From Fervidobacterium thailandense (GTDB taxonomy: Bacteria; Thermotogota; Thermotogae; Thermotogales; Fervidobacteriaceae): 60,643 nucleotides of DNA. The DNA lies in assembly GCF_001719065.1 (NCBI RefSeq), contig NZ_LWAF01000012.1, forward strand, positions 1-60,643, written 5' to 3'. The translations under genes and the position numbers were made by a program. The notes beneath the pieces are model-generated. The model did no database searches. It saw only the letters and a program-made list of their open reading frames with translations, and had not been told where the DNA came from. Within the stretch, counting starts at the first letter, position 1. Every line of letters starts with the position of its first letter. Below are positions 7,361 to 23,440 of the stretch, one piece after another.

Positions 7361-7394
7361 AAAATAAAAAGGGGCTCATCGTAAGATGAGCCCC
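7361..7394 (-). terminator. Intrinsic terminator of the his attenuator
   Basis: On the minus strand GGGGCTCATC, loop TTAC, GATGAGCCCC (perfect 10-bp stem) followed by TTTTTATTTT. It lies 27 bases before hisZ and between the his promoter and the operon, so it is a conditional terminator and not an end-of-gene one. Its 5' arm shares GGGGC with the antiterminator (7390-7394), so the two structures exclude each other. Confidence 0.93.
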
Positions 7395-7444
7395 TTGGGT
7401 TTACTCCACCATCAAAAAGACCCAGGTGGAGTAACACCCGGGGC
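7390..7444 (-). promoter_or_regulatory. Antiterminator and competing hairpin of the his attenuator
   Basis: RNA arm 7444-7425 (GCCCC, GGGU, bulged G, UUACUCCACC) pairs with arm 7410-7390 (GGUGGAGUAA, ACCC, bulged AA, GGGGC), giving 19 base pairs that sequester the 5' arm of the terminator. A second, upstream pairing competes: CACCAUCAAAA (7456-7446, containing two of the three His codons) with UUUUGAUGGUG (7417-7407). It shares four bases with the antiterminator 3' arm. This is the classic geometry: a ribosome stalled on the His codons masks the upstream arm and frees the antiterminator. Pairings are read directly from sequence; function is inferred. Confidence 0.88.
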
Positions 7445-7516
7445 ATTTTGATGGTGGTGAAGGTTGGAGTTTATGGTAAGAAACCGTCTTCGTAATGTGC
7501 TTTGCCGGAGGTTCAT
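7412..7516 (-). CDS. his operon leader peptide (HisL-like)
   Basis: A 34-codon ORF preceded by AGAGGTG five bases before its ATG. The peptide starts MNLRQ, carries LHHHQ at residues 19-23 (codons CAC CAC CAT at 7459-7451) and ends PPGSF. Three consecutive His codons just ahead of an antiterminator/terminator pair, at the head of a his operon, is what a histidine-sensing leader peptide looks like. Enterobacterial HisL has seven His codons, so this is a shorter sensor. The peptide itself probably has no function beyond ribosome stalling. The stop codon falls in the loop between the antiterminator arms. Confidence 0.88.
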   Translation of the reverse strand: MNLRQSTLRRRFLTINSNLHHHQNAPGVTPPGSF

Positions 7517-7735: not shown

Positions 7736-8551
7736 TCAATTCTGTTGTGATGACGAAATACTATTCACCTTTGTAGCTCCTACTAATTCTGTCCAAAGAG
7801 TCCTCACCGTGTGTCCAACTTTGAATTTGTCTGCTTCCCACGCTTCAATAAGTGCACTTCCAACTATGAAACCATCAACAAACTTTCTGAATTGCTCGAT
7901 CGTCTTACCGGTGCTCACCCCAAATCCAAGAAGTACAGGAAGACCCAGAATTTCTCTCACAACCGCTGCTCTTTCTTTGACGTCGGTTGGTAACTTCTTT
8001 CTCGAACCCGTGACACCTGTAACTGAGATCAAATACGAGAAACCACTATAGACAGTACCCATCATTTTTAAACGCTCTGATCCTGTGAGAGGAGAAATGA
8101 GAGGTATTAAATGAATCCCTTTGGTGTTGAATATTTTTGCCACTAGTTCTGCCTCCTCAAGAGGGAGATCAACAATAATCGCGCCCACAACTCCCAGCTT
8201 TGCCAAATTTTCTGCGAACAATTTAAGTCCGTACTGCAATACTGTATTAAAGTACCCCATAATCAGCAGTGGTGTGTCAAAAGAACGTCTAAAATCTGAA
8301 AGCATTTCAAAAACCATCTCTAATCTTGTCTCCAGCGCACGCATCATTGCTCGCTGTATGACAGGTCCGTCGGCTATCGGGTCCGAGAAAGGAAGCCCGA
8401 TTTCGATCATCGTTGCTCCTTCGGAAGCATAGAAACAAAGAAGCTCGTACGTTGCTCCAAGGTTCGGATCTCCAACTGTAAGGTATGGGATAATGGCTTT
8501 CCCATGCCGGCAAACGTCTCTGAGTTTTTCATCGAGTGCGTTTTCAAGCAT
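7736..8551 (-). CDS. trpA: TrpA: tryptophan synthase alpha subunit
   Basis: Cleaves indole-3-glycerol phosphate to indole, which is channelled to TrpB. The 271-residue barrel has the catalytic pair E50 ([13 protein letters not shown]) and D61 (PIADGPVIQ), and the phosphate-binding GFGVSTGK and GFIVGSAL segments. It overlaps trpB by 8 bases and is the last gene of the aromatic operon; the his leader follows about 220 bases later. Confidence 0.97.
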
Positions 8552-9809
8552 TTCTCATCCCTCCATGGTGTTTCTTGGATTCACCATCGTAAGAGATCAC
8601 TATACTGAGATCCTTGTCACCCCGGCCAGAGAGGTTTATAAGTACGCTCTTGCCTTTTAATTCAGCAGCGTTTTCTATAACGTACGCAAGAGCATGACTA
8701 CTTTCGAGAGCAGGCAAGATTCCCTCAAGTTTAGCGAGCATTCTGAACGCACTGACAGCAGAAGTATCGGTGACGTACGTGTAGCGAACACGCCCAGTGT
8801 CGTGTAGGAAAGCATGCTCGGGTCCAACGCTTGGATAGTCGAGTCCTGGCGCAACGGAGTAGGTGTCAAGTGTATTTCCGAATTCATCCTGTAATACGTA
8901 ACTCTTCGTACCCTGAAACACTCCGACTTTTCCGGTCTGGAATCTCGCCGCATGCTTTCCGGTTTCGATACCCAAACCGCCAGCTTCTACACCAACAAGC
9001 TCTACATCGTCTTCCAGAAAAGCAGAGAATATGCCTATTGCGTTGCTTCCGCCACCCACACAAGCAACGACAACGTCTGGCAGCCCTCCAAAAGCCTCGG
9101 TGAACTGTGCCTTGGCCTCGAAGCCTATTGTCGAAACGAACGTCCTCACGAGCTGAGGAAATGGGTACGGGCCGAAAACGGTGCCGAGTACGTAATGGGT
9201 TGTGCGCACGTTTGTGGTCCAATCACGCAGTGCTTCGTTAATGGCGTCCTTCAGCGTTCTTGTCCCACTTTTAACGGGAACAACCGTGGCACCGAGCATC
9301 TTCATCCGCTCTACGTTAACCCGCTGCCGCTCGACATCGTCAGCTCCCATGTAAATGGTGCACTCAAGGCCGAGGAGCGCACAGCATGTTGCCGTGGCAA
9401 CACCGTGCTGCCCAGCGCCGGTTTCGGCTATTATCCTCGTCTTGCCAAGTTTCTTCGCAAGGAGTGTTTGCCCTAAGGCATTCAGGATCTTGTGCGCTCC
9501 AGTGTGGTTAAGGTCTTCGCGTTTCAAGTAAACCTCCACACCGAGTTCCTTGGAGAGCCTTCGTGCGTGGAAAAGAGGAGTCGGTCGGCCAACGTAATCT
9601 CTGAGCAGTCTTCGGTATTCGTTCTGGAATTCTTCGTCTGGAACGATGTGCAAAAGTCCTTGTTCGAGTTCAATTAGGGCTGGCACGAGCGTTTCCGCTA
9701 CGTAGACGCCACCATACTCCCCATAGTAGCGTGACTGCGGCACTTCGAATGTTGCACCAACCCGTATTGTATTTCTGTCTTTTATGTTTTCGAGTTGTCT
9801 ATCAAACAT
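8544..9809 (-). CDS. trpB: TrpB: tryptophan synthase beta subunit
   Basis: PLP enzyme joining indole and serine to give tryptophan. The motif [13 protein letters not shown] contains the PLP lysine, [10 protein letters not shown] binds the cofactor phosphate, and the N-terminal [14 protein letters not shown] is typical of the TrpB1 class that pairs with TrpA. I use the ATG at 9809, with AGGAGG about 10 bases upstream; an in-frame TTG three codons earlier lies inside the ribosome-binding site. It overlaps trpF by 8 bases and trpA by 8. Length 421 aa, slightly longer than the common ~400. Confidence 0.96.
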
Positions 9810-10479
9810 CGTAACCAACCCTCCTGAAGAGTTCGATCATTTTTTTCGGATCCTTCTTCCCCGGCCGTTCTTCGACGCCACTTGAAACATCTATGGCATA
9901 TGGTCCGTAACGCAACGCCTCAGATACGTTCTCTGGCGTAATTCCGCCAGCAAGTATAAAAGGAATGGAAAGTTCTGAGAGCACCGACCAGTCGAACTTC
10001 GCTCCCGCTCCGCCGTACTTCTCGGTGAAACCTTCGATGAGTGGGAAGCACTTTAACGAAACGTGACCGACTTCATTAAGTGACCGAACGAGCCAACGAA
10101 CGTCTTCATCGGCTTTGATCCTGAACGGTCGTATAATGTGCCGACTGTTCACAAATTGGGAGAGTTCCTCGTACCTGTCCGCATTGTCGTAATAAACCTG
10201 GATGAAACTAAGGCTGAGAGCTCTCATGACATTAAGAACAGCCTCTGGTCGCTCGTTCACAAAGACACCTACGGTTGACACGAACACCGGGAGTCTTTCT
10301 ATAATCCCTAAAGCCTTTTCGGGGCTGACGTACCGTGGGCTCTTTTCGTAAAAGATGAAGCCGAGCGCGTCGGCTCCAAGCCTAACGGCGAGAAGAGCGT
10401 CTTCTAAGTTCGTTATCCCGCATATTTTTACCCTTACGCGATTTTTATATCCAACAGCAAATCCATCTTCCCGATGCAT
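9802..10479 (-). CDS. trpF: TrpF: phosphoribosylanthranilate isomerase
   Basis: Amadori isomerase of tryptophan synthesis, a stand-alone beta/alpha barrel (not fused to TrpC). The motif [14 protein letters not shown] carries the catalytic Cys, [17 protein letters not shown] carries the catalytic Asp, and AGGITPENV binds phosphate. The ATG follows GAGGTGGGG. Its 225 residues include about 13 extra N-terminal ones before the usual first strand. No alternative ATG, GTG or TTG fits closer. Confidence 0.95.
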
Positions 10480-10505: not shown

Positions 10506-11282
10506 TTACTTGCGAGCGCGTGCTAAGAATGCCACGAGCTCACGAAGCGTTTTGACCCTATCGCTCGACTTGAGAAGATACGTCCCGATGAGGAACCCGC
10601 TTGGTTTGTACGGGAGGTACGGTTCGAGGTCCTCAAGACGCTTCACACCGCTCTCAACGACGAGCGGAATGTCAGACGGTAGCTTTTTCACCACCTCGAG
10701 AGTATGAGTGTGAGAAACTTGGAGCGTTCTGAGATTCCTCGAGTTCACACCCAGAACGTACGGAACGCTGAGATCTTTCAACTTTTCGTAGGACTCAAGC
10801 TCATGGAGTTCGATGAGAAGATCCAGGCCGAGCTCGTACGCAAAGTACGCAAGTTTCTGAAGTTGTTCCTTTTCGAGCATCTCGGCAATCAGAAGCACGC
10901 AGTCTGCTCCGTAAAGAATGCTTTCGCACAGTTGTCGTGAAGAGACGATGAAGTCCTTTCTGAGTATTGGTAGCGAGGTGGCTGTTCGAGCCATTTTTAG
11001 GTCCTCAAGGCTTCCATCAAAGCGAGGGGTGTCAGTGAGTATCGAGACGGCGCTTGCACCGGCCCGTTCGTAATCGGCAAGGACCTGCCGAACATCGTCA
11101 GGTGTTCCTTTGGCCCCACATGTCACTTCTTGCAGGAGCGGGCCCTCCGACGGCGAACGTCTCTTGAACTCCGCGATCACGCCGCACGTCCCGCGCTGAC
11201 TGAACGATTTGTAGAAACGGCCCGGGCTCGCCCGCACATACAGTTGCTCTTTTTCAAGCCTGACACGCTCGAGAAAATCCAC
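10506..11282 (-). CDS. trpC: TrpC: indole-3-glycerol phosphate synthase
   Basis: Cyclises and decarboxylates CdRP to indole-3-glycerol phosphate. Diagnostic segments are VIAEFKRRSPSEGPL (catalytic Lys), LTDTPRFDGSLEDL, LRKDFIVS, ADCVLLIAE, LGVNSRNL and VVESGV. 258 aa, full length. It starts 6 bases after trpD and ends 26 bases before trpF. Confidence 0.96.
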   Translation of the reverse strand: MDFLERVRLEKEQLYVRASPGRFYKSFSQRGTCGVIAEFKRRSPSEGPLLQEVTCGAKGTPDDVRQVLADYERAGASAVSILTDTPRFDGSLEDLKMARTATSLPILRKDFIVSSRQLCESILYGADCVLLIAEMLEKEQLQKLAYFAYELGLDLLIELHELESYEKLKDLSVPYVLGVNSRNLRTLQVSHTHTLEVVKKLPSDIPLVVESGVKRLEDLEPYLPYKPSGFLIGTYLLKSSDRVKTLRELVAFLARARK

Positions 11283-11288
11283 GTCTAT

Positions 11289-12353
11289 TCACCTCGCCAA
11301 TGTTGTTTGGCTGAACGCTCGAATGGATTCGAGTAGCTCGGTCACTTTGCCATCGTTTATGAGTTTTTCGGCAAGTTCGATACCGTCAGCAGGTGTTTTG
11401 ACAACGGCTCGCGTGAAGAGCGCGTACCCAGCGTTGAGCAAAACCACATCCCTCTTAGGACCGTGCATTTTGCCCGAGAGTATTTCCCAAATCAGCTTAG
11501 CGTTATCCGATGCGCTTCCGCCGCGGAGGTCCTCAGGACTTGCTCGTTCAAATCCATGAATAGACGGATCTATCTCAAGTTCCTCCACGATACCGTTGTG
11601 CACGAGCAGCGCTTTTGAAGTTGTCGAAAGTGTCAGCTCATCCATTCCGTCGTTGCCCATGAAAACCAGCGCGCGTTTCACGTTCCGGCGAACGAGTATC
11701 GAGGCGTATGTATCGAGCATCTTGGCGTCTGAAACGCCGATGAAGAAATAGTCTGGTTTCAGTGGGTTCGCAAGAGGTCCTGCAAAGTTGAAAACTGTTC
11801 TGAACGGTAGCGACCTCCTGATGGGCACTACGTTCCTGAGTGCTGGATGGTAGGTTGGGGCAAAGAGGAAGCAAAAATTCGTCTTTTCGAGCATTTTTAA
11901 CGCATCTTCCGGTGACATTAAGATGTTCACGCCCAAGGCTTCGAGAACATCGGCACTACCGCACTTGCTCGAAGCGGCACGGTTCCCGTGTTTCGCAACT
12001 TTCACACCGGCGGCCGCAACGATGAGTGCAACGGCGGTTGAAATGTTGAACGTATCGTGTCCGTCACCGCCGGTTCCGACAACGTCCAGCAATTCGTAGT
12101 CCGGCCTTGGAACCTTAGTAGCACGTTTGAACATGACCTCGAGGAGCCCTTCGAGCTCGCTTGCGGCCACGCCTCTCATCGATAACGCACTCAGAACAGC
12201 GACGATCTTGTATTTCGCTTCGACCGAGCTATCGGCGGCCAGATCAAAGACGTTCTCAAAAAGAGAGATGCTCTCGTTCAGATCCAAGTAGCCTCCACCG
12301 TACACCTTCTTCAGTGCGAAATCGAGAAAGACATCGGTTGCCAGAGTGATCAC
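11289..12353 (-). CDS. trpD: TrpD: anthranilate phosphoribosyltransferase
   Basis: Transfers phosphoribosyl from PRPP to anthranilate. Recognisable motifs are DVVGTGGDGHDTFNIS (PRPP pyrophosphate loop), KHGNRAASSKCGSADVLEALG, and VPIRRSLPFRTVFNFAGPLANP. The start is a GTG overlapping the trpG TGA by four bases. It is a separate gene here, whereas in Thermotoga maritima TrpG and TrpD are fused (general knowledge). 354 aa. Confidence 0.96.
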   Translation of the reverse strand: MITLATDVFLDFALKKVYGGGYLDLNESISLFENVFDLAADSSVEAKYKIVAVLSALSMRGVAASELEGLLEVMFKRATKVPRPDYELLDVVGTGGDGHDTFNISTAVALIVAAAGVKVAKHGNRAASSKCGSADVLEALGVNILMSPEDALKMLEKTNFCFLFAPTYHPALRNVVPIRRSLPFRTVFNFAGPLANPLKPDYFFIGVSDAKMLDTYASILVRRNVKRALVFMGNDGMDELTLSTTSKALLVHNGIVEELEIDPSIHGFERASPEDLRGGSASDNAKLIWEILSGKMHGPKRDVVLLNAGYALFTRAVVKTPADGIELAEKLINDGKVTELLESIRAFSQTTLAR

Positions 12354-12958
12354 CCCCGCACACTAAAGCTTTTTGCGAATTCAACAAAGTTCCTGATCAT
12401 CTCGAAACCGTGATCCGTGAAGAGTGACTCGGGATGGAACTGGACTCCCTCGATTGGAAAACGTTTGTGACGAAGACCCATGACCTCTCCGTCTTCCGAT
12501 TGGGCTGTCAGGATTAGTTCAGAACCAGCAAGGGTGTCTCTGTCAACTATGAGCGAGTGGTACCGCATGACGTTTATCGGTGATGGTATACCCTGAAAGA
12601 TCCCTTTCCCGTCGTGGAAACATTTTCTGGTCTTCCCATGAACGACCTCTTTGGCGTTCTTAACCTCGCAACCGAAAGCGTAACCAATCACCTGGTGGCC
12701 CAGACAGATACCGAGTACTGGAATGTCAGCTCCAAGCGTTCGGACAAGTTCGACCACATCGGGAATATCCTTCGGATGCCCGGGTCCAGGTGAGATAATT
12801 ATTCCCTCGAGCTCTCCGCTCTTCTTCTTTTCGGAAAGTTCATCTAAGCGGAACTCATCGTTTCGGTAAACGCTCACACGCTCTTCGCCAACGAGAGTCA
12901 TAACGTACTGCACGAGATTGTAAGTGAAAGAGTCGTAATTGTCGATCACGACGAACAT
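12350..12958 (-). CDS. trpG: TrpG: anthranilate synthase glutaminase subunit
   Basis: Class I glutamine amidotransferase supplying ammonia to TrpE. Motifs in order: VIDNYDSFTYNLVQY, SPGPGHPKD (oxyanion loop), GICLGHQVIGYAFG with the catalytic Cys, and GVQFHPESLFT with His and Glu. I start at the ATG at 12958 after AGGTGAATT; the open frame runs 73 codons further upstream, but that part lies in trpE and is not TrpG-like. 202 aa. It could also serve p-aminobenzoate synthesis, as amphibolic TrpG proteins do, but no pabB is present. Confidence 0.95.
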   Translation of the reverse strand: MFVVIDNYDSFTYNLVQYVMTLVGEERVSVYRNDEFRLDELSEKKKSGELEGIIISPGPGHPKDIPDVVELVRTLGADIPVLGICLGHQVIGYAFGCEVKNAKEVVHGKTRKCFHDGKGIFQGIPSPINVMRYHSLIVDRDTLAGSELILTAQSEDGEVMGLRHKRFPIEGVQFHPESLFTDHGFEMIRNFVEFAKSFSVRG

Positions 12959-12990
12959 CGATAATTCACCTCGGCTTCCGTAAACCGTCG

Positions 12991-14490
12991 TTAGGCGATC
13001 CCATCGATTTCGGCGCCAGCGACACGTAGGAGTGCCATCGCTTTGTTTATGGTCTCTTGGTACTCGTTTTCCGGTACAGAATCGTAGACGATCCCAGCAC
13101 CAGCTTGGGTGAAGAGTTTTCCGTTTTTGAGAAGGCCGCTTCGGATCGTGATCGCAAAATCCGCGTCGCCGGCCCACGAGATGTAACCGACGCTGCCCGC
13201 GTAAAACTCTCTTGCCACGTTTTCGGTTTCCTCGATGATTTCCATCGCTCTAACCTTCGGAGCACCAATCACGGTGCCTGCTGGAAATGTTGCAGCTAAA
13301 GCATCAAGCGCGTTCAATCCGCTCCTAAGTTCGCCAGTGACCTCCGAGACGATGTGCATGACGTGCGAGTAGCGCTCGATGTACATGAGTCTTGGCACAC
13401 GAACAGTTCCAGCCCGCGCAACCCTTCCGATGTCGTTGCGCGCAAGGTCAACGAGCATCGAGTGTTCGGCAAGTTCTTTCTCATCAGCGAGAAGCTCCCT
13501 CTCGATGGCTTCGTCCTCTTCGACCGTTGTTCCACGCTTTCGCGTGCCAGCAATCGGATGGACGACGACCTTCCCTCCGGTCACTTTTATGAGTGTCTCC
13601 GGCGAACTTCCGAAGAGGGAGAACTCTCCTGTCTGTACGAGGAACATATAGGGCGACGGATTGGTGTATCTGAGCCTCCTGTAAAGTTCTACGGCACCAA
13701 CGTTCGTCTCGAGCGCAAAGCGCTGGGAGTAAACGACCTGGAACGCGTCACCAGCGTGGATGTAGCGTTTGATCTTTTCAACTCTCTCGCAAAACTCCGA
13801 TTTTGACAAGTACGTTGTCATTTTCGTTTTACCGGTCTCTCTGGCCACCAACTCGTTCTGGCTAAGTGGGTATTTCTCCAAAAGCGAGAGTTCGCGCCTG
13901 GCAACATCCAGCGAGAAACTGCGCGCCGGCTGAACCAGGACGTTCCACATGAGTCTCCTGTAGTTGTCGAAGATCACAAGGACGCTTGGAAATATGAGCG
14001 TGACCTCCGGAAAGCTAAGCTCGCGCGTCTTCGCAAAGCTAACTTTCTCGAAATACTGGACAGACTCGTATCCGAGCAGCACGAGCGCCATGGGAACCAT
14101 CGCCGGCACGAATTTTTCCTCCTCGCCAAGCTCGGTGTCGACTTCGAACGTTACGGAATCACTAACTAGGGTTGCGATCTTTCGTAGAGCTTCGAGGACG
14201 GCTCTCGGAGAATCAAGTTCAAGCACGCTACTCACGAGCCCTTTTAGTTCCAAGCGGCGGTTGGATACGGTTACCGTGAGAAAAGGCTCAGCACCAATGA
14301 ATGAATAACGCCCGACTTTTTCGTGTTGTTCGGCGCTTTCGAGGAGAAATGACGGGCCGTCACCGTACGCGTAGCGTACCTTCAGGTACATCGACATCGG
14401 CGTTTCGAGGTCCGCCAACCTTCGTAATGCAAATCCGCTAAGCTTTTCAGATCTTAGACGATCCAGCACCCGATCAAGCATGCGCTCCAC
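12991..14490 (-). CDS. trpE: TrpE: anthranilate synthase component I
   Basis: Chorismate-using large subunit of anthranilate synthase, 499 aa. The LLES motif at residues 49-52, whose Ser contacts feedback tryptophan in the family, is intact, so allosteric inhibition by Trp is expected. Catalytic-domain motifs include FQVVYSQRF, NPSPYMFL, HPIAGTRKRG, DLARNDIGRV and TFPAGTVIGAPKVRAMEII. It is the first trp gene, 36 bases after tyrA and with no terminator between, so it appears to depend on the aro promoter. Confidence 0.97.
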   Translation of the reverse strand: MERMLDRVLDRLRSEKLSGFALRRLADLETPMSMYLKVRYAYGDGPSFLLESAEQHEKVGRYSFIGAEPFLTVTVSNRRLELKGLVSSVLELDSPRAVLEALRKIATLVSDSVTFEVDTELGEEEKFVPAMVPMALVLLGYESVQYFEKVSFAKTRELSFPEVTLIFPSVLVIFDNYRRLMWNVLVQPARSFSLDVARRELSLLEKYPLSQNELVARETGKTKMTTYLSKSEFCERVEKIKRYIHAGDAFQVVYSQRFALETNVGAVELYRRLRYTNPSPYMFLVQTGEFSLFGSSPETLIKVTGGKVVVHPIAGTRKRGTTVEEDEAIERELLADEKELAEHSMLVDLARNDIGRVARAGTVRVPRLMYIERYSHVMHIVSEVTGELRSGLNALDALAATFPAGTVIGAPKVRAMEIIEETENVAREFYAGSVGYISWAGDADFAITIRSGLLKNGKLFTQAGAGIVYDSVPENEYQETINKAMALLRVAGAEIDGIA

Positions 14491-14526: not shown

Positions 14527-15303
14527 CTATCCCTGAATCTGTCCGTGGCCGATGCGGACACGGAGCTTCTTGAGGAATTTGCTCAACTCCTCGTGGTCCC
14601 GGTCTCGCACAATGTGTTTGAGGTACTCCAAGTTCGCCGCGATCTTGTCTATCTCGCGAACTGAAAAGTCATTAAACAAGATCTCGGAGATCAGCTTATC
14701 GTCCTCGTTCAAAAGTCCGGTGACGATGTCGAGGTGTTTCTTGAAGGTCGTTCCTGGCACAACAGTGTTGTCGACTCGGCTTGCGAAGACGAACGAGGCG
14801 ATGAACGGAACACTGAGTGAGTAAGCCATCATTTCGTCGTGCTCTTCGAATGTCAAATAGAAAAACCGCATCGAGTAGTTAGCGAAGAACTCTTCGAAGA
14901 GTGCCATGGTCTCCTCGTCGGAGCCTTTGATAAAGATCACGTTCTCTCCATGTATTCGCTCCATACTTGCGAACGTCGGTCCGAACATCGGGTGGAGCGA
15001 GACGAACCTCCTACCCGAGTTCGTATAGTAGTTGGCCACGCGGGTCTTTATCGATGCTATATCGCACACCACCGTGTGCTCGCCGAGTACAGGTTCGACA
15101 CTCAGGAACGCCTCAACTGCGTTGTCAAGCGATGCACAGTTGAGTACGATGTCGGGTGGCTCGGTGACAACTTCGTTCAGCGATACGTCCATCTTCTTGT
15201 CGTAGCCGATGACTATCCAACCCTCACCCAGGAACCTCGCTAAACGATTGGCAAACCAACTACCCATCTTTCCCAGGCCAAGTACAAGGAGCTTTTTCGG
15301 CAA
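14527..15303 (-). CDS. tyrA: TyrA: prephenate dehydrogenase
   Basis: NAD(P)-dependent oxidative decarboxylation of prephenate to 4-hydroxyphenylpyruvate. The Rossmann start LVLGLGKMGSWFANRL is followed by CDIASIKT, SLHPMFGPT (His-containing substrate loop) and the helical dimer domain. At 258 aa it has neither a fused chorismate mutase nor a C-terminal ACT domain, so no obvious Tyr feedback site. It lies between pheA and trpE. An arogenate preference cannot be excluded from sequence alone. Confidence 0.92.
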   Translation of the reverse strand: MPKKLLVLGLGKMGSWFANRLARFLGEGWIVIGYDKKMDVSLNEVVTEPPDIVLNCASLDNAVEAFLSVEPVLGEHTVVCDIASIKTRVANYYTNSGRRFVSLHPMFGPTFASMERIHGENVIFIKGSDEETMALFEEFFANYSMRFFYLTFEEHDEMMAYSLSVPFIASFVFASRVDNTVVPGTTFKKHLDIVTGLLNEDDKLISEILFNDFSVREIDKIAANLEYLKHIVRDRDHEELSKFLKKLRVRIGHGQIQG

Positions 15304-15358: not shown

Positions 15359-16486
15359 TCATCTTTCGACGACCAGTGAGTCGTACAGGCCGAGCATTCT
15401 TAATTCCATAGTTTTCGCTTTGAGACCGGCAACGAACACGTCGAATGAGTCAAGCACGCGTTCTGTTTCGAAATCTACGAAGAACCTGTAAACGTGTGGC
15501 TCACTGCGCGACGGAAGCGAGACGATCCTCGTGAGGTTCACCTCTCTCGATTTGAAGTACTCCAGCACACCCAAAAGTGCGCCCGGTCTGTCCTCGAGAA
15601 GGAATGTCACGGCGCATTTGGAGCCAGTCGCTCTCGTCTCCTTCGAGAGGATCCAAAAGGACGTGCGGTTGTGCGGGTAATCCTGGATCGATTCTTTTAA
15701 GACCTCGAGACCGTAAATCTTGGCTGCGAGTTCACTACCGATTGCCGCAGCATTCGACATCCGTTCGCTGGCCAGTTTTCTTGCGGCGCCGGCGGTGTCG
15801 TAGTACTCGACAGACTCGAGCGAAAGTCTCTTAAGGAAGTTCCTACACTGTGCGAGTGCCTGCGGGTGAGAGTACACGAACCTGATATTTCTCGGATCAG
15901 TCTCCGGTAACGTGAGGAGGCAATGTCTTATCGGAAGGACGATCTCGCAAACGACGTAAAGGTCGCTCTCGAGAAGGGCGTATGTAGCCGAAGGTATTGG
16001 ACCCTCGAGTGAGTTCTGTACCGGAAGGATCCCATAATCGATCAACCCGCGCTCGACGTTGTCGATGATGTCCTCAAAGGTTCTGAATGGTAGCGTGACG
16101 GCACGTTCGCGCAGTACCTCAGCGATGAACTTCAGCGCCGCTATCTCGCTGTACGCTCCGTGCTCGCCTTGGAATCCGATCAGTTTCGCACTACCAGATT
16201 GTAGCTCTCTACTCCGCTGGAGCACACTGGCGTACATCCTCTCGGCAAACTTGGAGCCGACTAGGAGCTCATTCGATACCGACCGTACGTGCGAGAGGAC
16301 CTCATCCTCCCGAACCGGATCGACAATCGATCCTTTGAGGCGACCGATACGGAGTGCGATTTCAAACCGCTCGTTGAGCAGGAGGAGAATCTTAGTGTCG
16401 AGTGTGTCTATGATCTCCCTAAGCCTCGCAAGTTCTGTAGTTCTTTCGTCCATCCCGTTCTCAAGCGCCACGAGTATCCCCCCCAT
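15359..16486 (-). CDS. pheA: PheA: chorismate mutase / prephenate dehydratase with ACT domain
   Basis: Bifunctional P-protein. An AroQ chorismate mutase covers about residues 15-100 (ELARLREIIDTLDTKILLLLN). Prephenate dehydratase covers about 100-285 (FQGEHGAYSE, YSHPQALAQC, DTAGAA, AAIGSELAA, NRTSFWIL with the catalytic Thr). An ACT domain follows (PGALLGVLEYF and PSRSEPHVY), predicting Phe feedback. This is the only chorismate mutase in the cluster, so it must also feed TyrA. The start is uncertain: the ATG used has a poor ribosome-binding site, while a GTG at 16471 with GGGGGGAT upstream is better. All choices overlap aroC. Confidence 0.93.
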   Translation of the reverse strand: MGGILVALENGMDERTTELARLREIIDTLDTKILLLLNERFEIALRIGRLKGSIVDPVREDEVLSHVRSVSNELLVGSKFAERMYASVLQRSRELQSGSAKLIGFQGEHGAYSEIAALKFIAEVLRERAVTLPFRTFEDIIDNVERGLIDYGILPVQNSLEGPIPSATYALLESDLYVVCEIVLPIRHCLLTLPETDPRNIRFVYSHPQALAQCRNFLKRLSLESVEYYDTAGAARKLASERMSNAAAIGSELAAKIYGLEVLKESIQDYPHNRTSFWILSKETRATGSKCAVTFLLEDRPGALLGVLEYFKSREVNLTRIVSLPSRSEPHVYRFFVDFETERVLDSFDVFVAGLKAKTMELRMLGLYDSLVVER

Positions 16487-17498
16487 TTTGAAATATCACT
16501 TGCCACCGCTCGTAACCATATCTGATGAGAAGAAGATCAGCAAGCGTGATCGCAACCATCGCCTCGACGATCGGTGGAAACCTGAGTGCGATACACACAT
16601 CGTGCCGCCCACGCACACGTAGCTCGGTTCGTTCCCCCGTTCGGAGGTCGACCGTACGCTGGGGCAGCGAGATACTCGCCGTCGGACGAACCGCAAGTCT
16701 CAGAACTATCTCGTTCCCGTTCGTGATGCCACCGTTCAGTCCGCCTGAGTTATTTGTTGCCGTTCGACCATTCGTGTCTATGATCTCGTCGTTAAATTCC
16801 GAGCCTCTCATTCTCGCACAAGCGAAACCAGCGCCAAACTCTATACCCTTGACACCTGGAATCGAGAAAAGTGCGTGCGCCAGTAAGCTTTCCACGGAGT
16901 CAAAAAACGGTTCCCCAAGCCCCACCGGCACCGAACGCACAGAGCACCTGACAACGGCACCGACCGAGTCACCGGCTCTTTCGAGCTCTTCAAGGAGCTT
17001 CGCGTAACCCGTGCGCGTTCCGCCGATTTCTTCGATATAGGCGTGGACCTTTATTGGGCGTATCACTTTTTTTGCAACCACACCAGCTGCCACGAGCCCG
17101 GCCGTGAGTCGCCCCGAAAAATGCCCTCCTCCGCGGTAGTCGTTGAAGCCCCAGTACTTCTGGCGAGCTGTCATGTCGGCATGCCCCGGCCTTGGCAGAT
17201 ACCTTATCTCCTCATAGTCAGATGGCCTCACGTCTTCGTTAGGAAATGTTATTGTAACTGGAGCACCGGTGGTCCGCCCATCGAAAACGCCGGACTGTAT
17301 GCACGGTTCGTCTCGATCGACACGCTTTGTTGTTCCAAGCTTACCGGCACGGCGGCGCAACATGTCTGTTCTGAAATCGTTAACCCCAAGAGGGATCCCG
17401 GCGGGAACGCCGTCAATGACCACACCAACTACCGGACCGTGCGATTCGCCGAAGATGCTCACTCGAAAGACACGACCGAACGAGTTCAATGGACTCAC
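16461..17498 (-). CDS. aroC: AroC: chorismate synthase
   Basis: Last shikimate step, EPSP to chorismate, needing reduced FMN. Family signatures are FGESHGPVVGVVIDGVPAGI at the N-terminus, RPGHADMTARQKYWG, DYRGGGHFSGRLTAG and NNSGGLNGGITNG. 345 aa. The ATG overlaps the aroA stop (ATGA). Sampled lines in this part exceed 55% GC, among the most GC-rich in the window. Confidence 0.97.
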   Translation of the reverse strand: MSPLNSFGRVFRVSIFGESHGPVVGVVIDGVPAGIPLGVNDFRTDMLRRRAGKLGTTKRVDRDEPCIQSGVFDGRTTGAPVTITFPNEDVRPSDYEEIRYLPRPGHADMTARQKYWGFNDYRGGGHFSGRLTAGLVAAGVVAKKVIRPIKVHAYIEEIGGTRTGYAKLLEELERAGDSVGAVVRCSVRSVPVGLGEPFFDSVESLLAHALFSIPGVKGIEFGAGFACARMRGSEFNDEIIDTNGRTATNNSGGLNGGITNGNEIVLRLAVRPTASISLPQRTVDLRTGERTELRVRGRHDVCIALRFPPIVEAMVAITLADLLLIRYGYERWQVIFQNGGDTRGA

Positions 17499-18898
17499 CC
17501 CGCAACACCATTAAGCTCTTTGAGTACCATCTCGACAACTTTGTAGAAACTTGGGAAAGATTTTGCCACGCACGAGGCATTCGTTATGGAAATGCCCCCA
17601 CGTCTTCTCAAACCGATCAACGTGGCAGCCATCGCAATCCTATGGTCGTTGTGTGAGTCGACCTCAATTTGATCTTCTTGCGGCAATACATTCGGTCCAA
17701 GCCCGTCGATAATGAAGCTGTCGTCGCTGATCTCGTATCTGACGCCAACGGCGTCAAGCAGTCTACCGAGCGCCTGGAGGCGGTTGCTCTCTTTAAACCT
17801 AAGCCTCTTGACACCGTACATGTGCGTCCGACCACGGCAAAAAACGGCGAGAGGGACGAGTGGTGGGACAAGGTCTGGACAATCGGTGAAGTCAAACTCG
17901 AAACCGTTCATACTCTCGACGCGATCGATCGAAAACGCCCCATTTTCGAATTTCACGCGAACACCGGCGCGTTCGAGTACATTAAGCACGGCCCTATCGG
18001 CTTGTAGACTCGAAGGCGACAGATTCAAAATGCGCACATCGACACCATCGAGTTTGAGTAACGCGGCAAGCACCAGAAGAAACGCGCCAGCAGACCAATC
18101 GCCTTCCACTTCGTATGACCCTCCGACGTAATGCTGGCGGCCCGAGACATGGAATTCGGTGAAGTCCTCCGAAGTGCGGACCCTTATGCCAAAACGCTCC
18201 ATCGTTTCAAGCGTCATCGCTATGTATGGCTTGCTCGTAGGGTTCTCAACAATCACCGTCGAATCGCCATCGGTGAGTGGAAGTGCCATCAAAAGTCCGG
18301 AAAGAAGCTGGCTTGTCAGAGAGGCGTCGATCCGGCCATGCGCTGCTCTTAAACGACCGGACACGTTGACTGGTAGATAACCGGCGTTCGTCTCTACAAG
18401 GAGTCCGAAGGCCTTGAGTCCGGCAACAATATCGAACGGTCGTTTGAGCAGCGACCCCCGACCCGTAACTGTTGTAACGGCGGTGTCATCACCGAACAGA
18501 CCAAGTATTGGAAGCACCATCCTCGCGCATAAACCGGACTCGCCACATTCCAGTTTGCTTGGACGGGCTGTCCTCAGAGAAGCGCCGGAATCGGGTGAAC
18601 TGAACATCACATCTCGACTGTCAAGAACGCCATCTCCCGAGTGACTCTCGGTTATTTTGACTCCAAACGCCTTTGCCACCTCGAGTGATGCCGAAGCATC
18701 TTCACAACTCGATACGTTCCGAAGCCGTACCTCACCGGACCCCTCGCAACAGGCAACGGAAAGTAAAGAAGCAAAAATGGCCCTAATCGATTGACTCTTC
18801 GATGGCGGTGCAGTAAAGGTCACGGTGCGTCCAACAGGTGCGTCAATCTTGATAGGAACAACGATCGCGCGATCGCTCGTCTGGTCAACCAATAACAT
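17495..18898 (-). CDS. aroA: AroA: 3-phosphoshikimate 1-carboxyvinyltransferase (EPSP synthase)
   Basis: Transfers enolpyruvyl from PEP to shikimate 3-phosphate. Visible motifs are APPSKSQSIRAIFAS (PEP/S3P lysine), LECGESGLCARM, SQLLSGLLMALPL, GDWSAGAFLL, the catalytic Asp segment FTDCPDLVPPL, FKESNRLQAL and DSHNDHRIAMA. I start at the ATG at 18898 (GAGGAG about 10 bases upstream), which overlaps aroE/K by 14 bases; a TTG three codons earlier lies too close to the ribosome-binding site. At 467 aa it is somewhat longer than the usual ~430. Confidence 0.95.
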   Translation of the reverse strand: MLLVDQTSDRAIVVPIKIDAPVGRTVTFTAPPSKSQSIRAIFASLLSVACCEGSGEVRLRNVSSCEDASASLEVAKAFGVKITESHSGDGVLDSRDVMFSSPDSGASLRTARPSKLECGESGLCARMVLPILGLFGDDTAVTTVTGRGSLLKRPFDIVAGLKAFGLLVETNAGYLPVNVSGRLRAAHGRIDASLTSQLLSGLLMALPLTDGDSTVIVENPTSKPYIAMTLETMERFGIRVRTSEDFTEFHVSGRQHYVGGSYEVEGDWSAGAFLLVLAALLKLDGVDVRILNLSPSSLQADRAVLNVLERAGVRVKFENGAFSIDRVESMNGFEFDFTDCPDLVPPLVPLAVFCRGRTHMYGVKRLRFKESNRLQALGRLLDAVGVRYEISDDSFIIDGLGPNVLPQEDQIEVDSHNDHRIAMAATLIGLRRRGGISITNASCVAKSFPSFYKVVEMVLKELNGVAG

Positions 18899-20270
18899 AG
18901 GTCTCAAGCTCCTCGCTCAAGATTTGAACGATCTCTTCTGGCGTTCTTCCTTCGGTTGGTACCACAAGGTCCGCCACGGAGAAGTAGAGATCGAGCCGTT
19001 CGTTCAACATCACTTTCAACTTGCACACGGTTTCTTCAACACCGTCAGCTTTTAGAAGTGGCCGGTCCGTCGTACCGGCCAAACGAGATGCACATTCGTC
19101 AGGACCGGCCCACAGCCAGATTACATGACCTTCGGTGAGCTGCTGACGATTTTCGGCTTTCAGAACTATGCCACCTCCCGTCGATACAATTTGCGCACCG
19201 TCCTTGCGTAACACGTCCGACAGAACGACGGTCTCGAGTTCACGAAAACGCGTCTCCGTCAGTTTTTCAAAGATCTCCGACACACTCATGCCAGTTCTCT
19301 CTTCGATCAACACATCAGTGTCAACGTGTTCGGCGTCGGTGACCGCCGCAAGGAGCCGCCCTACCGTCGTCTTTCCGGTTCCGGAGAGTCCGATGAGAAA
19401 AACGACAGGCTTCTTAGAGCGTGAATTTTTCAATACGTGCTCCCATGAATTGTCGAAAATCTCATCCCAAATGTTTGGATCGATGTCCTTCTCGGTAAAA
19501 ATTCTGAACGCCTCGAGCCCCTGTGCAAGGAGCCACGTCTCACCGGGTACGTACACGCCGCCAGTCACTTCCACTCGCTCTCGGTAGTTCGCGTCGATGA
19601 AAACCGCGTTCTTACCCAGTTCAAGTTTCCTGAGTTCCTCAGGGCGCACCGAAAGACAGTTGAGAATGAGTTCAAACGTTTCGAGTCTGGTTGGAAATTC
19701 TTCAAGCTTGGCCGTGCTCACCGTGACGTGGTCACCGGCAAACTTCTTAGCGAGAAGCGAAGCTTTGCCCACCGTTCGGTTGAAGACCGTCACATCGAAC
19801 TTGGTTCCTGTATCTTGACCATAAAGAGTCATTGCTGCGAGTACCGCGCGTGCAGCGCCACCTGCACCGAGTAGTGCAGTTTTCACACATTCGCTGGAAC
19901 CAGTCCCGATGTAGCGTCGCAAAAATTTTTCGATAGCAAGCACATCGGTGTTCGTACAGAACGGATTTGCACACCCCATCTCGGTTGAGCGTCTGAAGGC
20001 AACTGTATTCACAGCACCACTCAGAAGAGCAGTTTCACTCACGCCCCAACCGCGGGCTTTACAAACGCGAAACGCGTCTTCTTTAAAAGGTGCTGTGATG
20101 TTAATTCCGTCAATTCTTAAGTGCTCTGACAGCTCCAAAGCCTCTTCAAAACTCGAGACCCTGAGACGTGTGTAGCTACAGCTCACGCCAAGTCTTGAAC
20201 CGAACTTCGCGAAAATTAATGGACTCTTGCTGTGATATATTGGAGAACCTACGACCGCAAACTTCAGCAT
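18885..20270 (-). CDS. aroEK: AroE-AroK fusion: shikimate dehydrogenase / shikimate kinase
   Basis: Two consecutive shikimate enzymes in one 461-residue chain. AroE is about residues 1-270: SKSP substrate motif (14-17), catalytic K63 (NITAPFKED), D109 (TNTDVLA) and NADP loop LLGAGGAARAV (134-143). AroK is about 288-461: P-loop GLSGTGKTT (294-302), HVDTDVLIEERTG, FRELE, STGGGIV and TTDRPLL (lid). The linker is only about 20 residues. The frame is unbroken, so this is a genuine fusion. No separate aroE or aroK occurs in the window. Gap from aroD is 76 bases. Confidence 0.95.
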   Translation of the reverse strand: MLKFAVVGSPIYHSKSPLIFAKFGSRLGVSCSYTRLRVSSFEEALELSEHLRIDGINITAPFKEDAFRVCKARGWGVSETALLSGAVNTVAFRRSTEMGCANPFCTNTDVLAIEKFLRRYIGTGSSECVKTALLGAGGAARAVLAAMTLYGQDTGTKFDVTVFNRTVGKASLLAKKFAGDHVTVSTAKLEEFPTRLETFELILNCLSVRPEELRKLELGKNAVFIDANYRERVEVTGGVYVPGETWLLAQGLEAFRIFTEKDIDPNIWDEIFDNSWEHVLKNSRSKKPVVFLIGLSGTGKTTVGRLLAAVTDAEHVDTDVLIEERTGMSVSEIFEKLTETRFRELETVVLSDVLRKDGAQIVSTGGGIVLKAENRQQLTEGHVIWLWAGPDECASRLAGTTDRPLLKADGVEETVCKLKVMLNERLDLYFSVADLVVPTEGRTPEEIVQILSEELETYVIG

Positions 20271-20346: not shown

Positions 20347-21072
20347 TCACAAACGCCTTAAGTCTTTCTCTAACTGGTCAGCCGTCGTTGAAAGGATCAT
20401 CTGACGGAGCTCATCGTAGCTTGGTTGGTCCGGTGCTGTACTTTCGAACGCAGCGGCAAAAGTAAAAGGACTACCGAGCAGTGGAGCGAGACATCGTACC
20501 TTGACCCCCAACTTACCCATTCCAGCCACAATCACCCGTGGGCTGCAAAGCGAAAGCAAGGTTTCGGCATCCTCATCCGAACACACGAGAGTTGCTACCT
20601 TCAGTAAGTCCGGAGAGAGTGACGCTTCAGCTCGCTCAATCCAGCTTTTAAGAACATCGAGCTTGTCTGTAGATTCGAAGTTGTGGTAAGAATAAATGAA
20701 AGATGTGCCAACGGTTCGGCTGAGTTCCCTAAGTTCACGTGCCAGCTCGAAAGGTAGCTCCGAGTCGACGTCGATGAAATCAGCACCAGATAACGCTGCT
20801 ATTCTGAGAAGCTGAAAACGTTCTGCGTCCGAAAATCTTCCAGCTCGGCAAGTCACGATGCATCGTCCCCTCCTGGAGCTTTTCAGAAAGGCACTCAACC
20901 TCCGGGCGACACCATCGAGTTCTGGTACTTCGAACGACATGAGATCGATACGGAGCTCGTAGAGCCGGTAGCGCCGATCAACCTCTTCGAAGACATAATC
21001 CGATCTATGTCCGACGCTTGCGCAAATGAAATCGCCGTACGGCTCACCTATCGGTGGCACCGCTGTTTGCAT
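20347..21072 (-). CDS. aroD: AroD: type I 3-dehydroquinate dehydratase
   Basis: Schiff-base-forming dehydratase of the shikimate pathway. Features: YRLYELRIDLMSFE near strand 2, IVTCRAGRFSD (TCR segment), FIDVDSELP, FIYSYHNFEST (catalytic His) and LLKVATLVCSDED (Schiff-base Lys). Near the C-terminus AGMGKLGVK and LGSPFTFAAAF are typical. I choose the ATG at 21072, 8 bases after the aroB stop; the frame is open 18 codons further but would overlap aroB. 241 aa. Confidence 0.93.
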   Translation of the reverse strand: MQTAVPPIGEPYGDFICASVGHRSDYVFEEVDRRYRLYELRIDLMSFEVPELDGVARRLSAFLKSSRRGRCIVTCRAGRFSDAERFQLLRIAALSGADFIDVDSELPFELARELRELSRTVGTSFIYSYHNFESTDKLDVLKSWIERAEASLSPDLLKVATLVCSDEDAETLLSLCSPRVIVAGMGKLGVKVRCLAPLLGSPFTFAAAFESTAPDQPSYDELRQMILSTTADQLEKDLRRL

Positions 21073-21080
21073 CACGTTTC

Positions 21081-22169
21081 TCACCACGCTTTTGGTAGTT
21101 GATGCGGAATTTCCGTCAAGATGCACCGTAAGATTTCGAGGAACGTTTCCCTCTTTACGCTCCGAACCTCCGAAACCCCTGGACGCAGAATGTTTACCAA
21201 ATCGATGTAGTTACCCGAGTTCTTTTTGTCGTGCCTTGCGATGCCCAGAACCTCCTCGATGTCGGACTCTCCAAGCTCTACGTATGTTGGAAGTCCCAAA
21301 GTGGCGAGTATTCGTTGGATCTCCGACGTTACGTCGAACTTCGTTCCAAAGAGAACCTCGTTCACACGGCTTTCGACGACCATTCCAACGCTCACCGCAA
21401 AGCCGTGGCGCAGGTTGAACTTAAGCTCGAGCGCGTGACCGACGGTGTGCCCAAAGTTGAGCAGCCGCCTGAGGCCACGATCGCCCAGGTCTTCTGAAAC
21501 AACCCGCACCTTCACGTTTATCGACCGGGTGATAATCTCTCTTAAAGCTGAATGCTTGATCTCTTCGCCTGGTCTGTACAATTCCTGGAGTACTTCCAGA
21601 AGGCGCTCGTCGCCGATGAGTCCGGTCTTAACGACTTCGGCGAGTCCGTTCTTGAACTCTTCGGCTGGCAGGGTGGAAAGGAATTCCGGACACAACAACA
21701 CGAATTCAGGGAGCGTGATTGTACCGATGGTGTTCTTGAATGCTCCGAGGTCAACTCCGTTTTTCCCACCGATCGCCGCATCAACCATCGCCAGAAGCGT
21801 CGTTGGCACGAAACCGAACCTGAGACCGCGCATGAACGTTGAACCAATGAACCCGGCGATGTCGCACACGGCACCACCGCCAACCCCAAGCAAGAACCAA
21901 GTTCTGTCAACGTCGGCGTTTAAAAGGGTCCAGTAAACCCTCTCGAGCTTCGAAAATTGCTTAGCATTTTCCCCCGGTTCCAGTGTTACGACGACTTTCG
22001 GCTCGAGAAGTGTCAAAAAATCCCTTTGGAGGCGGCCAACGTTCTCGTCGGTCAGGACGCAGAGTCTATCGGAGTAAACCGACCAGATAGAGCGTAAAGA
22101 ATCGGCAAGTTCAGACTTCGTTTCAAAGAAACAAATCGACGAGCCGAAGAGTTGTGCGAGTTCAACCAC
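21081..22169 (-). CDS. aroB: AroB: 3-dehydroquinate synthase
   Basis: NAD- and metal-dependent conversion of DAHP to 3-dehydroquinate. Motifs: [79 protein letters not shown]-like [24 protein letters not shown] (metal His) and RHDKKNSG. 362 aa, complete. The GTG start overlaps aroF by 8 bases, with GGGAGG about 11 bases upstream. The alternative 2-deoxy-scyllo-inosose synthase family is unlikely given the context. Confidence 0.96.
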
Positions 22170-23058
22170 AGCAGCCGATACCTCCAGGGATGAAGCGCTG
22201 TCCTTCGCTTATGTTTCCGGCTTTGTTCATCGTGACGTTTGTGGCACTAAAGCCTTCTAGAGTTGCTCTAAGCGCCCTGACCCTTCTGACAAGTTCCCTG
22301 AAAGCTTCAGGTGTGAGCGCCTGTTCCTTATCGGACAACGCTTCTTCCGGACGAATGTGGACTTCGACGATGATTCCGTCCGCCCCTACTGCCGCTGCTG
22401 CCTGAGCCAACGGGATCACGAGCGATGCCTTGCCCGCTGCGTGCGAAGGATCGACGATCACCGGCAGGTGCGTAAGCTCCTTAAGCGACGGCACCGCACT
22501 GATGTCGAGCGTGTTCCTCGTGTAGGTTTCAAAAGTTCGGATGCCCCGCTCACAAAGAACCACATTTGGATTGCCTTCGGCGAGAATGTACTCGGCGCTG
22601 TTCAACAAATCACTAAGTGTCGAATGCATTCCGCGCTTCAAAAGTACTGGTTTGTTCGCCTTACCAACTTCCTTGAGGAGCGAAAAGTTTTGCATGTTCC
22701 GAGCACCGATTTGCAGCATATCCACGTATTCTGCAACCCAATGCACGTCTCTTGGGTCGAGTACCTCTGTCACAATGGGTAAGCCTGTGAGCTCAGAGGC
22801 CTTCTTCAAGATCTTGAGGCCCTTCAGCCCAAGTCCCTGGAACGAGTACGGCGACGTGCGCGGCTTGAAAACACCACCTCTCAACATGTGAGCGCCGGCT
22901 TCTTTTACAGCAAATGCTGTTTCGATCATCTGCGCCTCGCTCTCGACCGCGCACGGCCCGGCGATGATCACGAACCCCTCGCCGAATCTCACACAGGAGA
23001 CATCAACAACCGTTCGCGCTCTGGCCACACTCTTACTGGCAAACTTCAAACCTGACAT
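22162..23058 (-). CDS. aroF: AroF: DAHP synthase, type I-beta, without N-terminal regulatory domain
   Basis: First shikimate step, PEP plus erythrose 4-phosphate to DAHP. Barrel motifs: [67 protein letters not shown] and IIVEVH. The T. maritima homologue has about 95 residues before IIAGPC, including a ferredoxin-like domain for Tyr/Phe inhibition (family knowledge). Here there are only about 30, so that domain is missing. There is also a C-terminal tail of roughly 35 residues ending GGIGCCG. I start at the ATG at 23058 with GGGGGTGAT upstream; a GTG three codons earlier is less well placed. 298 aa. Confidence 0.95.
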
Positions 23059-23082
23059 CGGAATCACCCCCGGGAGAATTGT

Positions 23083-23131: not shown

Positions 23132-23173
23132 AAAAAAACCGTGGGTGCACTTTTGCTCTTGTGCACCCACGGT
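23132..23173 (-). terminator. Intrinsic terminator of the aromatic attenuator
   Basis: Minus-strand ACCGTGGGTGCAC, 10-base loop, GTGCACCCACGGT (perfect 13-bp stem) then TTTTTTTATTT. It sits between the aro promoter and aroF, so it is conditional. Its 5' arm (23172-23161) is the strand captured by the antiterminator. Confidence 0.93.
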
Positions 23174-23236
23174 CTTCTGTAGCCCTTCCCCTGGTGGTCT
23201 TGCTCAACGCAAAACCGCAGGAGGCCGTGGATGCAC
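23161..23236 (-). promoter_or_regulatory. Antiterminator of the aromatic attenuator
   Basis: RNA segment GUGCAUCCACGG (23236-23225), immediately after the aromatic codons, can pair along all 12 bases (one G-U) with CCGUGGGUGCAC (23172-23161), the 5' arm of the terminator. A competing upstream structure sequesters it. The outer stem is CUGGUGGU (23258-23251, spanning the Trp codons) with ACCACCAG (23198-23191), and the inner stem is GCAGGAG (23242-23236) with CUCCUGC (23223-23217). A ribosome held on the Phe/Trp codons would break the competing stem and favour antitermination. Pairing is seen directly; behaviour is inferred. Confidence 0.88.
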
Positions 23237-23323
23237 TCCTGCATAATAAAACCACCAGAAGTTATTTATTTTGGAAGAAAACGCGCTGATACTATCTAGT
23301 TTGACAGTACTTAGTTGGTCCAA
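23204..23323 (-). CDS. Aromatic amino acid leader peptide (FWWFYY)
   Basis: A 39-codon ORF whose residues 22-27 are Phe-Trp-Trp-Phe-Tyr-Tyr (codons TTC TGG TGG TTT TAT TAT, 23260-23243), followed by AGVHPRPPAVLR and TGA. All six aromatic codons lie consecutively, just before the antiterminator, ahead of an operon that makes exactly Phe, Tyr and Trp. The only standard start in this frame downstream of the in-frame TAA is TTG at 23323, with AGGGGGG six bases upstream, so the start is less certain than the frame. No other function is expected. Confidence 0.85.
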   Translation of the reverse strand: MDQLSTVKLDSISAFSSKINNFWWFYYAGVHPRPPAVLR

Positions 23324-23411
23324 TTCCTTCCCCCCTGTATAAGTTGGTGCTTAAGCATGAATATTTTTACCCATCAGATCGGAATGTTAAGCTACATGTT
23401 TGTTTTTTAAT

Positions 23412-23440
23412 ATTCTACACAAGATATACAAACATGTCAA
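23412..23440 (-). promoter_or_regulatory. Promoter of the aro-phe-tyr-trp operon
   Basis: Minus-strand TTGACA, exactly 17 bases, TAGAAT. A transcript would start near 23405, giving roughly 80 bases before the leader TTG and about 345 before aroF. It is the only strong sigma-A promoter I found for the 15-gene operon. Confidence 0.85.

Follow-up and report, generated by a model that had tools for sequence, protein, structure and literature searches.

The question raised by this locus is how an operon for the whole of aromatic amino acid synthesis could be adjusted to the supply of three different end products. The window analysed here, a stretch of 60,643 nucleotides of Fervidobacterium thailandense, carries such an operon on its minus strand, and a preliminary description of the DNA had proposed that it stands under attenuation through a leader peptide with the residues Phe-Trp-Trp-Phe-Tyr-Tyr. 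This reading is supported by relatives, other phyla and a ribosome-masking model, in a form broader than first proposed. The locus very probably encodes a ribosome-mediated attenuator of the trp/his/ilv type, which would sense the charging of tRNA-Phe, tRNA-Trp and tRNA-Tyr jointly and control the whole aromatic operon. In the comparisons below, G000 is the genome under study, which belongs to the same order as Thermotoga maritima, and its nearest AroF relatives are G075 from the same family and G041 and G039 from another family.

The presence of a 15-gene aro-phe-tyr-trp operon downstream of the leader, as claimed earlier, was confirmed by NCBIfam assignments (Table 1). The genes follow in the order aroF-aroB-aroD-aroEK-aroA-aroC-pheA-tyrA-trpE-G-D-C-F-B-A, with gaps of at most about 76 nt, and serve all three end products. 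The AroF protein appears to lack the regulatory domain that the Thermotoga maritima enzyme has at its N-terminus, as it aligns only from near residue 69 of 1rzm onward; in that case more of the feedback may fall to the control of expression. A Trp-type leader before the internal trpE gene was detected neither in this operon nor in that of G075. The same window also contains a His leader (MNLRQSTLRRRFLTINSNLHHHQNAPGVTPPGSF-stop, with the run HHH; 7412-7516, minus strand), followed by a terminator at about 7366-7396 and preceding a hisZ-hisG-hisD operon; the leader and terminator are a putative second leader-peptide attenuator in the window.

Table 1. Features of the leader region and of the operon behind it (positions in the window).
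Feature	Position	Strand	Description
Promoter	23412-23440	minus	TTGACA-17-TAGAAT; consensus match 11/12; TTGACA-17-TAtAAT, equally spaced, in G075, G041, G039
Leader ORF	23204-23323	minus	TTG start at 23323; 39 codons, then TGA (23206-23204)
Control codons	23243-23260	minus	TTC TGG TGG TTT TAT TAT (Phe-Trp-Trp-Phe-Tyr-Tyr)
Arm A	23248-23258	minus	CTGGTGGT(TTT), spans the Trp-Trp-Phe codons; partner is arm C; in G075 a perfect stem of 11 bp
P1, left arm	23236-23242	minus	GCAGGAG; pairing kept across the 4 relatives, with a single compensatory pair
Antiterminator strand B	23225-23236	minus	GTGCATCCACGG; pairs with D
P1, right arm	23217-23223	minus	CTCCTGC; partner of GCAGGAG
Arm C	23191-23201	minus	(AAG)ACCACCAG; partner is arm A or the last leader codons (GGTTTTGC)
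Strand D	23161-23172	minus	CCGTGGGTGCAC; common to antiterminator and terminator
Terminator strand E	23139-23150	minus	GTGCACCCACGG; two compensatory pairs in D:E
Terminator U-tract	23132-23138	minus	from the sequence
aroF	22162-23067	minus	DAHP synthase type I-beta, apparently without N-terminal regulatory domain; NCBIfam, domain from alignment start against 1rzm
aroB	21081-22169	minus	NCBIfam
aroD	20347-21126	minus	NCBIfam
aroE-aroK fusion	18885-20270	minus	NCBIfam
aroA	17495-18907	minus	NCBIfam
aroC	16461-17498	minus	NCBIfam
pheA	15359-16486	minus	chorismate mutase-prephenate dehydratase; NCBIfam
tyrA	14527-15303	minus	NCBIfam
trpE	12991-14490	minus	NCBIfam
trpG	12350-13177	minus	NCBIfam
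trpD	11289-12353	minus	NCBIfam
trpC	10506-11282	minus	NCBIfam
trpF	9802-10479	minus	NCBIfam
trpB	8544-9818	minus	NCBIfam
trpA	7736-8551	minus	NCBIfam

The promoter and the short ORF with six consecutive aromatic codons named in the preliminary description were both found and match base for base. As in known leader-peptide attenuators, the first gene is preceded by a translatable short ORF with a start codon and a ribosome-binding site, here a G-rich Shine-Dalgarno sequence 6 nt 5' of the TTG. The ORF encodes LDQLSTVKLDSISAFSSKINNFWWFYYAGVHPRPPAVLR-stop, and its codon run corresponds to the end products of the operon and tracks operon content in the nearest relatives. When the upstream 400 nt were dinucleotide-shuffled 20,000 times, six consecutive aromatic codons in any of the three frames turned up by chance in 5 shuffles. 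The TTG start had been considered a weak point, which is eased by the relatives, since G075 has a TTG behind GGAGGG and G041 and G039 have an ATG with a good Shine-Dalgarno sequence; a second weak point, the position of the ribosome at the stop codon, persists and is taken up below. The TTGACA-17-TAnnAT promoter and the Shine-Dalgarno sequence are kept in all four genomes, with two TTG and two ATG starts.

An intrinsic terminator stands before the first structural gene, and an antiterminator shares a strand with it. The terminator is a perfect 13 bp stem (ACCGTGGGTGCAC/GTGCACCCACGGT) with a loop of 10 and T7, and it went unreported by the pattern scan for terminators because that scan admitted only loops of up to 8. 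Both this terminator with its U-tract and the 12-base antiterminator B:D were confirmed as first described, and the competing stem that includes the Trp codons, given earlier as 23258-23251 with 23198-23191, extends to 11 bp with one G-U pair (A:C). All the pairings named in the preliminary description are thus present, but two elements had been overlooked: the inner hairpin P1, whose loop contains strand B, and an extra hairpin (GGTTTTGC/GCAAGACC) formed by the last leader codons with positions 23191-23201.

Compensatory changes in both stems, proposed earlier as a check, were seen among the relatives, the antiterminator and the terminator covarying over four sequences. In the four species, 95.8% of the B:D cells are in standard pairs and two pairs are changed on both sides, while P1 and D:E have 100% of cells in standard pairs, against 25-49% with slid partners. 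Alignment columns 37/100/123 and 38/99/124 change jointly across B, D and E, from C-G-C in G000 to U-A-U in G041 and G039 at both positions; such joint change would be required if D is to pair with both B and E. Against shuffles, B:D reaches the floor of p = 0.003, and in the B:D control shuffles, a weak control with four sequences only, 236 of 500 reach the percentage paired and 180 of 500 the covariation score. An ordinary promoter-proximal terminator or a chance ORF, without regulation, is scarcely credible, as the run, the antiterminator and the terminator are conserved jointly, far above shuffles. Relatives that retain the terminator and have lost the aromatic codons or the reading frame were looked for, and all three nearest relatives keep the frame, the run, the antiterminator and the terminator. 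The strong competing structures and the conserved RNA core would also suit a direct RNA sensor acting without leader translation, such as a T-box or an aromatic riboswitch, with the ORF being incidental. However, when the window and seven relatives were scanned with Rfam, no amino acid leader, T-box or riboswitch match reached its gathering threshold, and the ORF, its start signals and the aromatic run are conserved while the N-terminus of the leader drifts, which makes such a sensor highly improbable.

In the proposed ribosome-mediated attenuator, RNA polymerase would initiate at the promoter and a ribosome would initiate on the leader ORF. A shortage of any one of the charged tRNAs (Phe, Trp, Tyr) would stall the ribosome on one of the six codons, where it would cover arm A and, if stalled further along the run, the left arm of P1 as well, leaving strand B free. 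The free strand B would pair with D, the terminator would be blocked and all 15 genes would be transcribed. With all three tRNAs charged, the ribosome would continue through the codons that overlap B (Ala-Gly-Val-His-Pro-Arg...); with B masked, or trapped in P1 and the A:C stem, D would pair with E and transcription would end before aroF.

This sequence of events was modelled by folding the RNA up to strand D with the ribosome footprint masked and reading, for each A-site codon, the probability that D is paired upstream. Strand D is paired upstream as long as the A-site is at the aromatic codons or 5' of them, and is mostly free directly after the run. In G000 this probability stays at 0.99 up to and including the fourth aromatic codon, decreases to 0.89 and then 0.64 at the two Tyr codons and reaches 0.41 at Ala. 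It drops from 0.93 at Y to 0.33 at A in G075 and from 0.83 at Y to 0.34 at T in G041, and in G039 it takes the values 0.84, 0.80, 0.60 and 0.39 at the last Tyr and the three codons that follow. The modelled antitermination drop lies at the last aromatic codon or within three codons of it. A stall at each of the six control codons masks arm A and hardly touches strand B, and it is in the folding model only that a stall frees the antiterminator strand while further translation hides it. No clear step appeared for the His leader of the window, which had served as a positive control; the model is therefore not a general detector.

The same results bear on an attenuator that senses only by its last codons (Phe4, Tyr5, Tyr6 and perhaps Trp3), in which the earlier Trp and Phe codons mainly build arm A and Tyr and Phe exert most of the control. 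Only from about Trp3 onward would a stalled ribosome reach the left arm of P1, which would stay exposed in stalls at the first two control codons; the Trp codons form arm A, which is perfectly paired with C in G075, and Tyr is the sole residue kept in all four relatives. However, the modelled antitermination in G000 is 0.99 at Phe1, Trp2, Trp3 and Phe4, above both Tyr codons, 17 of the 18 operons that contain trp genes retain W across phyla whose arm sequences are unrelated, and Trp-only operons carry Trp-only leaders. Sensing confined to the last codons is therefore considered rather unlikely, and joint sensing of the three tRNAs is preferred.

For the joint-sensing attenuator, the energetics of the two outcomes were also considered. 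At 65-75 C the two competing states lie 1.5-5 kcal/mol apart, as expected of a switch. The equilibrium model favours the antiterminator also without a ribosome and with the ribosome at the stop codon; the stop codon lies about 19 nt past strand B, so that a ribosome positioned there would leave B unmasked. The OFF state would then need kinetics, fast release or a trailing ribosome, and may depend on the following ribosome, on release timing or on folding order.

The relation between codon run and operon content is clearest among the nearest relatives. AroF matches at E <= 0.001 were obtained in 62 of 103 Thermotogota genomes, some of them weak, and the other species of the same genus gave no match. 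The AroF tree has the form (G000,(G075,(G041,G039))) with clade support of 100/99, and this clade groups with non-Thermotogota sequences, being split from most other Thermotogota AroF with 100/97; the switch and the operon were therefore probably moved by horizontal transfer. G075 has these 15 genes as well, in unchanged order, and its leader, NYWWFYYYAGVHLRPPAVLS-stop, carries the run YWWFYYY. In G041 and G039 the operon consists only of aroF-aroA-tyrA, and the aromatic codons of the runs in their leaders (LYYYYTGGRLWSPVVFDV-stop and NYCYYYAGEHLWSPAGFVV-stop) are Tyr only (YYYY and YCYYY, respectively), the Phe and Trp codons having been lost from the run. The residual TGG and TTT codons in these two genomes are positioned in or past strand B, and a ribosome stalled at that place would prevent the antiterminator from forming. 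This pattern suggests that the FWY run is ancestral and the Y-only run derived. Stand-alone trp operons in Thermotogota have Trp-only leaders (NWWWHLG-stop, TWWWHL-stop and SSWWCLKQ...RW-stop; L190-L196, L198, L200, L176, L179, L180). Judged from these clean contrasts, codon content follows operon content among the nearest relatives, and likewise when aro operons are set against trp operons. An aro and trp operon with a different AroF type (L115 in G053) was observed to carry a Trp-only leader, MKYNINKKLNNVISWWNSKTSDRWL-stop.

The recurrence of H-P-x-P residues after the run could be taken as a sign of nascent-peptide arrest of the TnaC type, in which the leader peptide itself, while in the exit tunnel, would bind or sense aromatic amino acids in free form. 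However, the order and number of the aromatic residues vary freely (FWWFYY, YWWFYYY, YWWFYFY, YYYY), and H-P-x-P is accounted for by strand B, which is necessarily a near copy of E. Arrest of this kind is very unlikely, and sensing through the codons of the run remains the preferred reading.

In a wider set of loci, ORFs with at least six aromatic residues in eight stand upstream of aroF at 48 of 80, compared with 4 of 80 when the reverse strand is read and 0.9% in shuffles; the 80 loci were picked partly for having leaders, so that 48/80 is not a natural frequency. The leaders at L115 and at L117/L118 (KYYWYF) were assigned by eye, replacing the automatic ORF choice. The lineages with aromatic aroF leaders include Thermotogota, Desulfobacterota-like genomes, Spirochaetes and Acidobacteria, and most of the leaders have a terminator. 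A deltaproteobacterium has the same 15 genes in the same order behind the leader YWWFYFYGYLHSGPP-stop, and in an Aminicenantes genome the leader SSYFYFWA-stop accompanies aro, phe, tyr and trp genes. The leaders YFGFWYFYSMPHPCPF-stop and NYYWYYFFYG occur in Desulfobacterota-like genomes, and SFFYFWAVPAA-stop precedes an aro and trp operon in Acidobacteria. In Spirochaetes an aro-phe-tyr operon without trp genes follows the leader-like sequence FYFYFYG, which has no Trp. The aroF gene of Thermotoga maritima (G090, L127; its AroF is identical to 1rzm) has the leader YYYFWFNRGTCP-stop with the run YYYFWF.

Strand B was complementary to D at p<0.05 in 35 of 58 aroF leaders with terminators (combined p about 1e-31), values obtained by shuffling the intervening region and taking the strongest terminator, with relatedness uncorrected. 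In the clearest cases strand B lies 3-13 nt past the aromatic run; G000 and its relatives, family f10 and many Desulfobacterota-like genomes show it clearly. A convincing strand B was sought among the same 58 leaders also in Spirochaetes and in Thermotoga proper, where it was absent or unclear; therefore, only the codon run and the terminator are claimed there. The run contains Trp in 17 of 18 complete operons with trp genes versus 20 of 29 without them (Fisher p=0.065, relatedness uncorrected). The link between Trp codons and trp genes across all loci is only suggestive, as operons of the common pathway may reasonably sense all three amino acids.

Several individual loci deserve separate mention. 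The aroF leader of Thermotoga maritima at L127, MRRGRIICLKSVEHNYYYFWFNRGTCP-stop, has a strong terminator, and its antiterminator strand is not obvious. The Syntrophaceae-like loci L143-L146 and L216-L230 seemingly have two tandem terminators after the aromatic leader, possibly a double attenuator. The L155 contig, assigned by binning to an uncultured archaeon, has an aro-phe-tyr operon of bacterial type together with the leader-like ORF WQNFFYYFSFSYRYQ, through either a binning error or a transfer.

The aromatic leaders before DAHP synthase operons in Thermotogota, Desulfobacterota-like genomes and Acidobacteria, with leader-like ORFs in Spirochaetes, probably represent a widespread and unnamed family, whose members would sense up to three tRNAs, move horizontally with the operon and rewrite the run (FWY, FY or Y only) as branches come and go. 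This family seems largely undescribed. The trp, his and pheA attenuators of E. coli are leader-peptide attenuators that each sense one amino acid, and multivalent attenuators are those of ilvGMEDA (Leu/Val/Ile) and thrABC (Thr/Ile). The leader described here shares with the former group its control codons and the same logic of a mutually exclusive antiterminator and terminator, but would respond to Phe, Trp and Tyr and govern the whole pathway from DAHP synthase. Like ilvGMEDA and thrABC, it would sense several end products of its own operon by one leader; those systems belong to branched-chain or threonine pathways in Proteobacteria, and they are likened to it by logic, not by sequence. As in leuL, the leader ORF continues through the antiterminator strand. 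Thermotogales are reportedly mentioned in the abstract of Vitreschak 2004, and single-amino-acid attenuators there may be known. An earlier Thermotogota example was not found in a literature search that did not reach Vitreschak 2004 and Lopatovskaya 2010.

Among the published elements, the uORFC-13-1 motif upstream of aroF combines a short ORF containing one or more Phe codons with a terminator and was proposed to act by attenuation, on the basis of 24 sequences from Acholeplasma and environmental samples (PMC8632094). By its description it concerns Phe only, with no Trp/Tyr run reported, which sets it apart from the present leader. The aroG-2 gene of Geobacter has, like aroF here, a conserved element before a DAHP synthase gene, the 5' RNA element Gmet_R0069/GSUR082, for which no leader peptide, codons or mechanism were proposed in the text of the paper (PMC2700814). 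This element may belong to the same family, as a leader, SSFFNFYFWCDFF, was found in Desulfuromonas. For E. coli aroF-tyrA, a hypothesis of Tyr-tRNA attenuation (Camakaris 1980) is cited in PMC8632094 and PMC2659441; it resembles the present case in aroF attenuation by an aromatic tRNA and differs in the single amino acid and the 5' UTR. A survey of 2013 lists only His, Leu, Thr, Trp, Ile/Val and Phe attenuators, mainly from gamma-proteobacteria (PMC3766115), and the searched passages of PMC545781, PMC2965389, PMC1262725 and PMC4833913 contain no aromatic multi-sensing leader before aroF.

Summarizing, the mechanism proposed here is classical ribosome-mediated attenuation and is not categorically new; what is new is the three-aromatic sensing that heads a whole pathway, the tracking of operon content by codon content, and the breadth. 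A single RNA switch would thereby govern aromatic amino acid synthesis at its entry and in each of its three branches, and the joint change of codon content and operon content among the relatives amounts to a natural experiment. Leader-peptide attenuation would be extended from mainly gamma-proteobacteria to deep-branching thermophiles and other phyla, with Thermotoga maritima and its YYYFWF aroF leader as a cultivated test case, and the question is posed of how three tRNA signals may be integrated by a single ribosome track.
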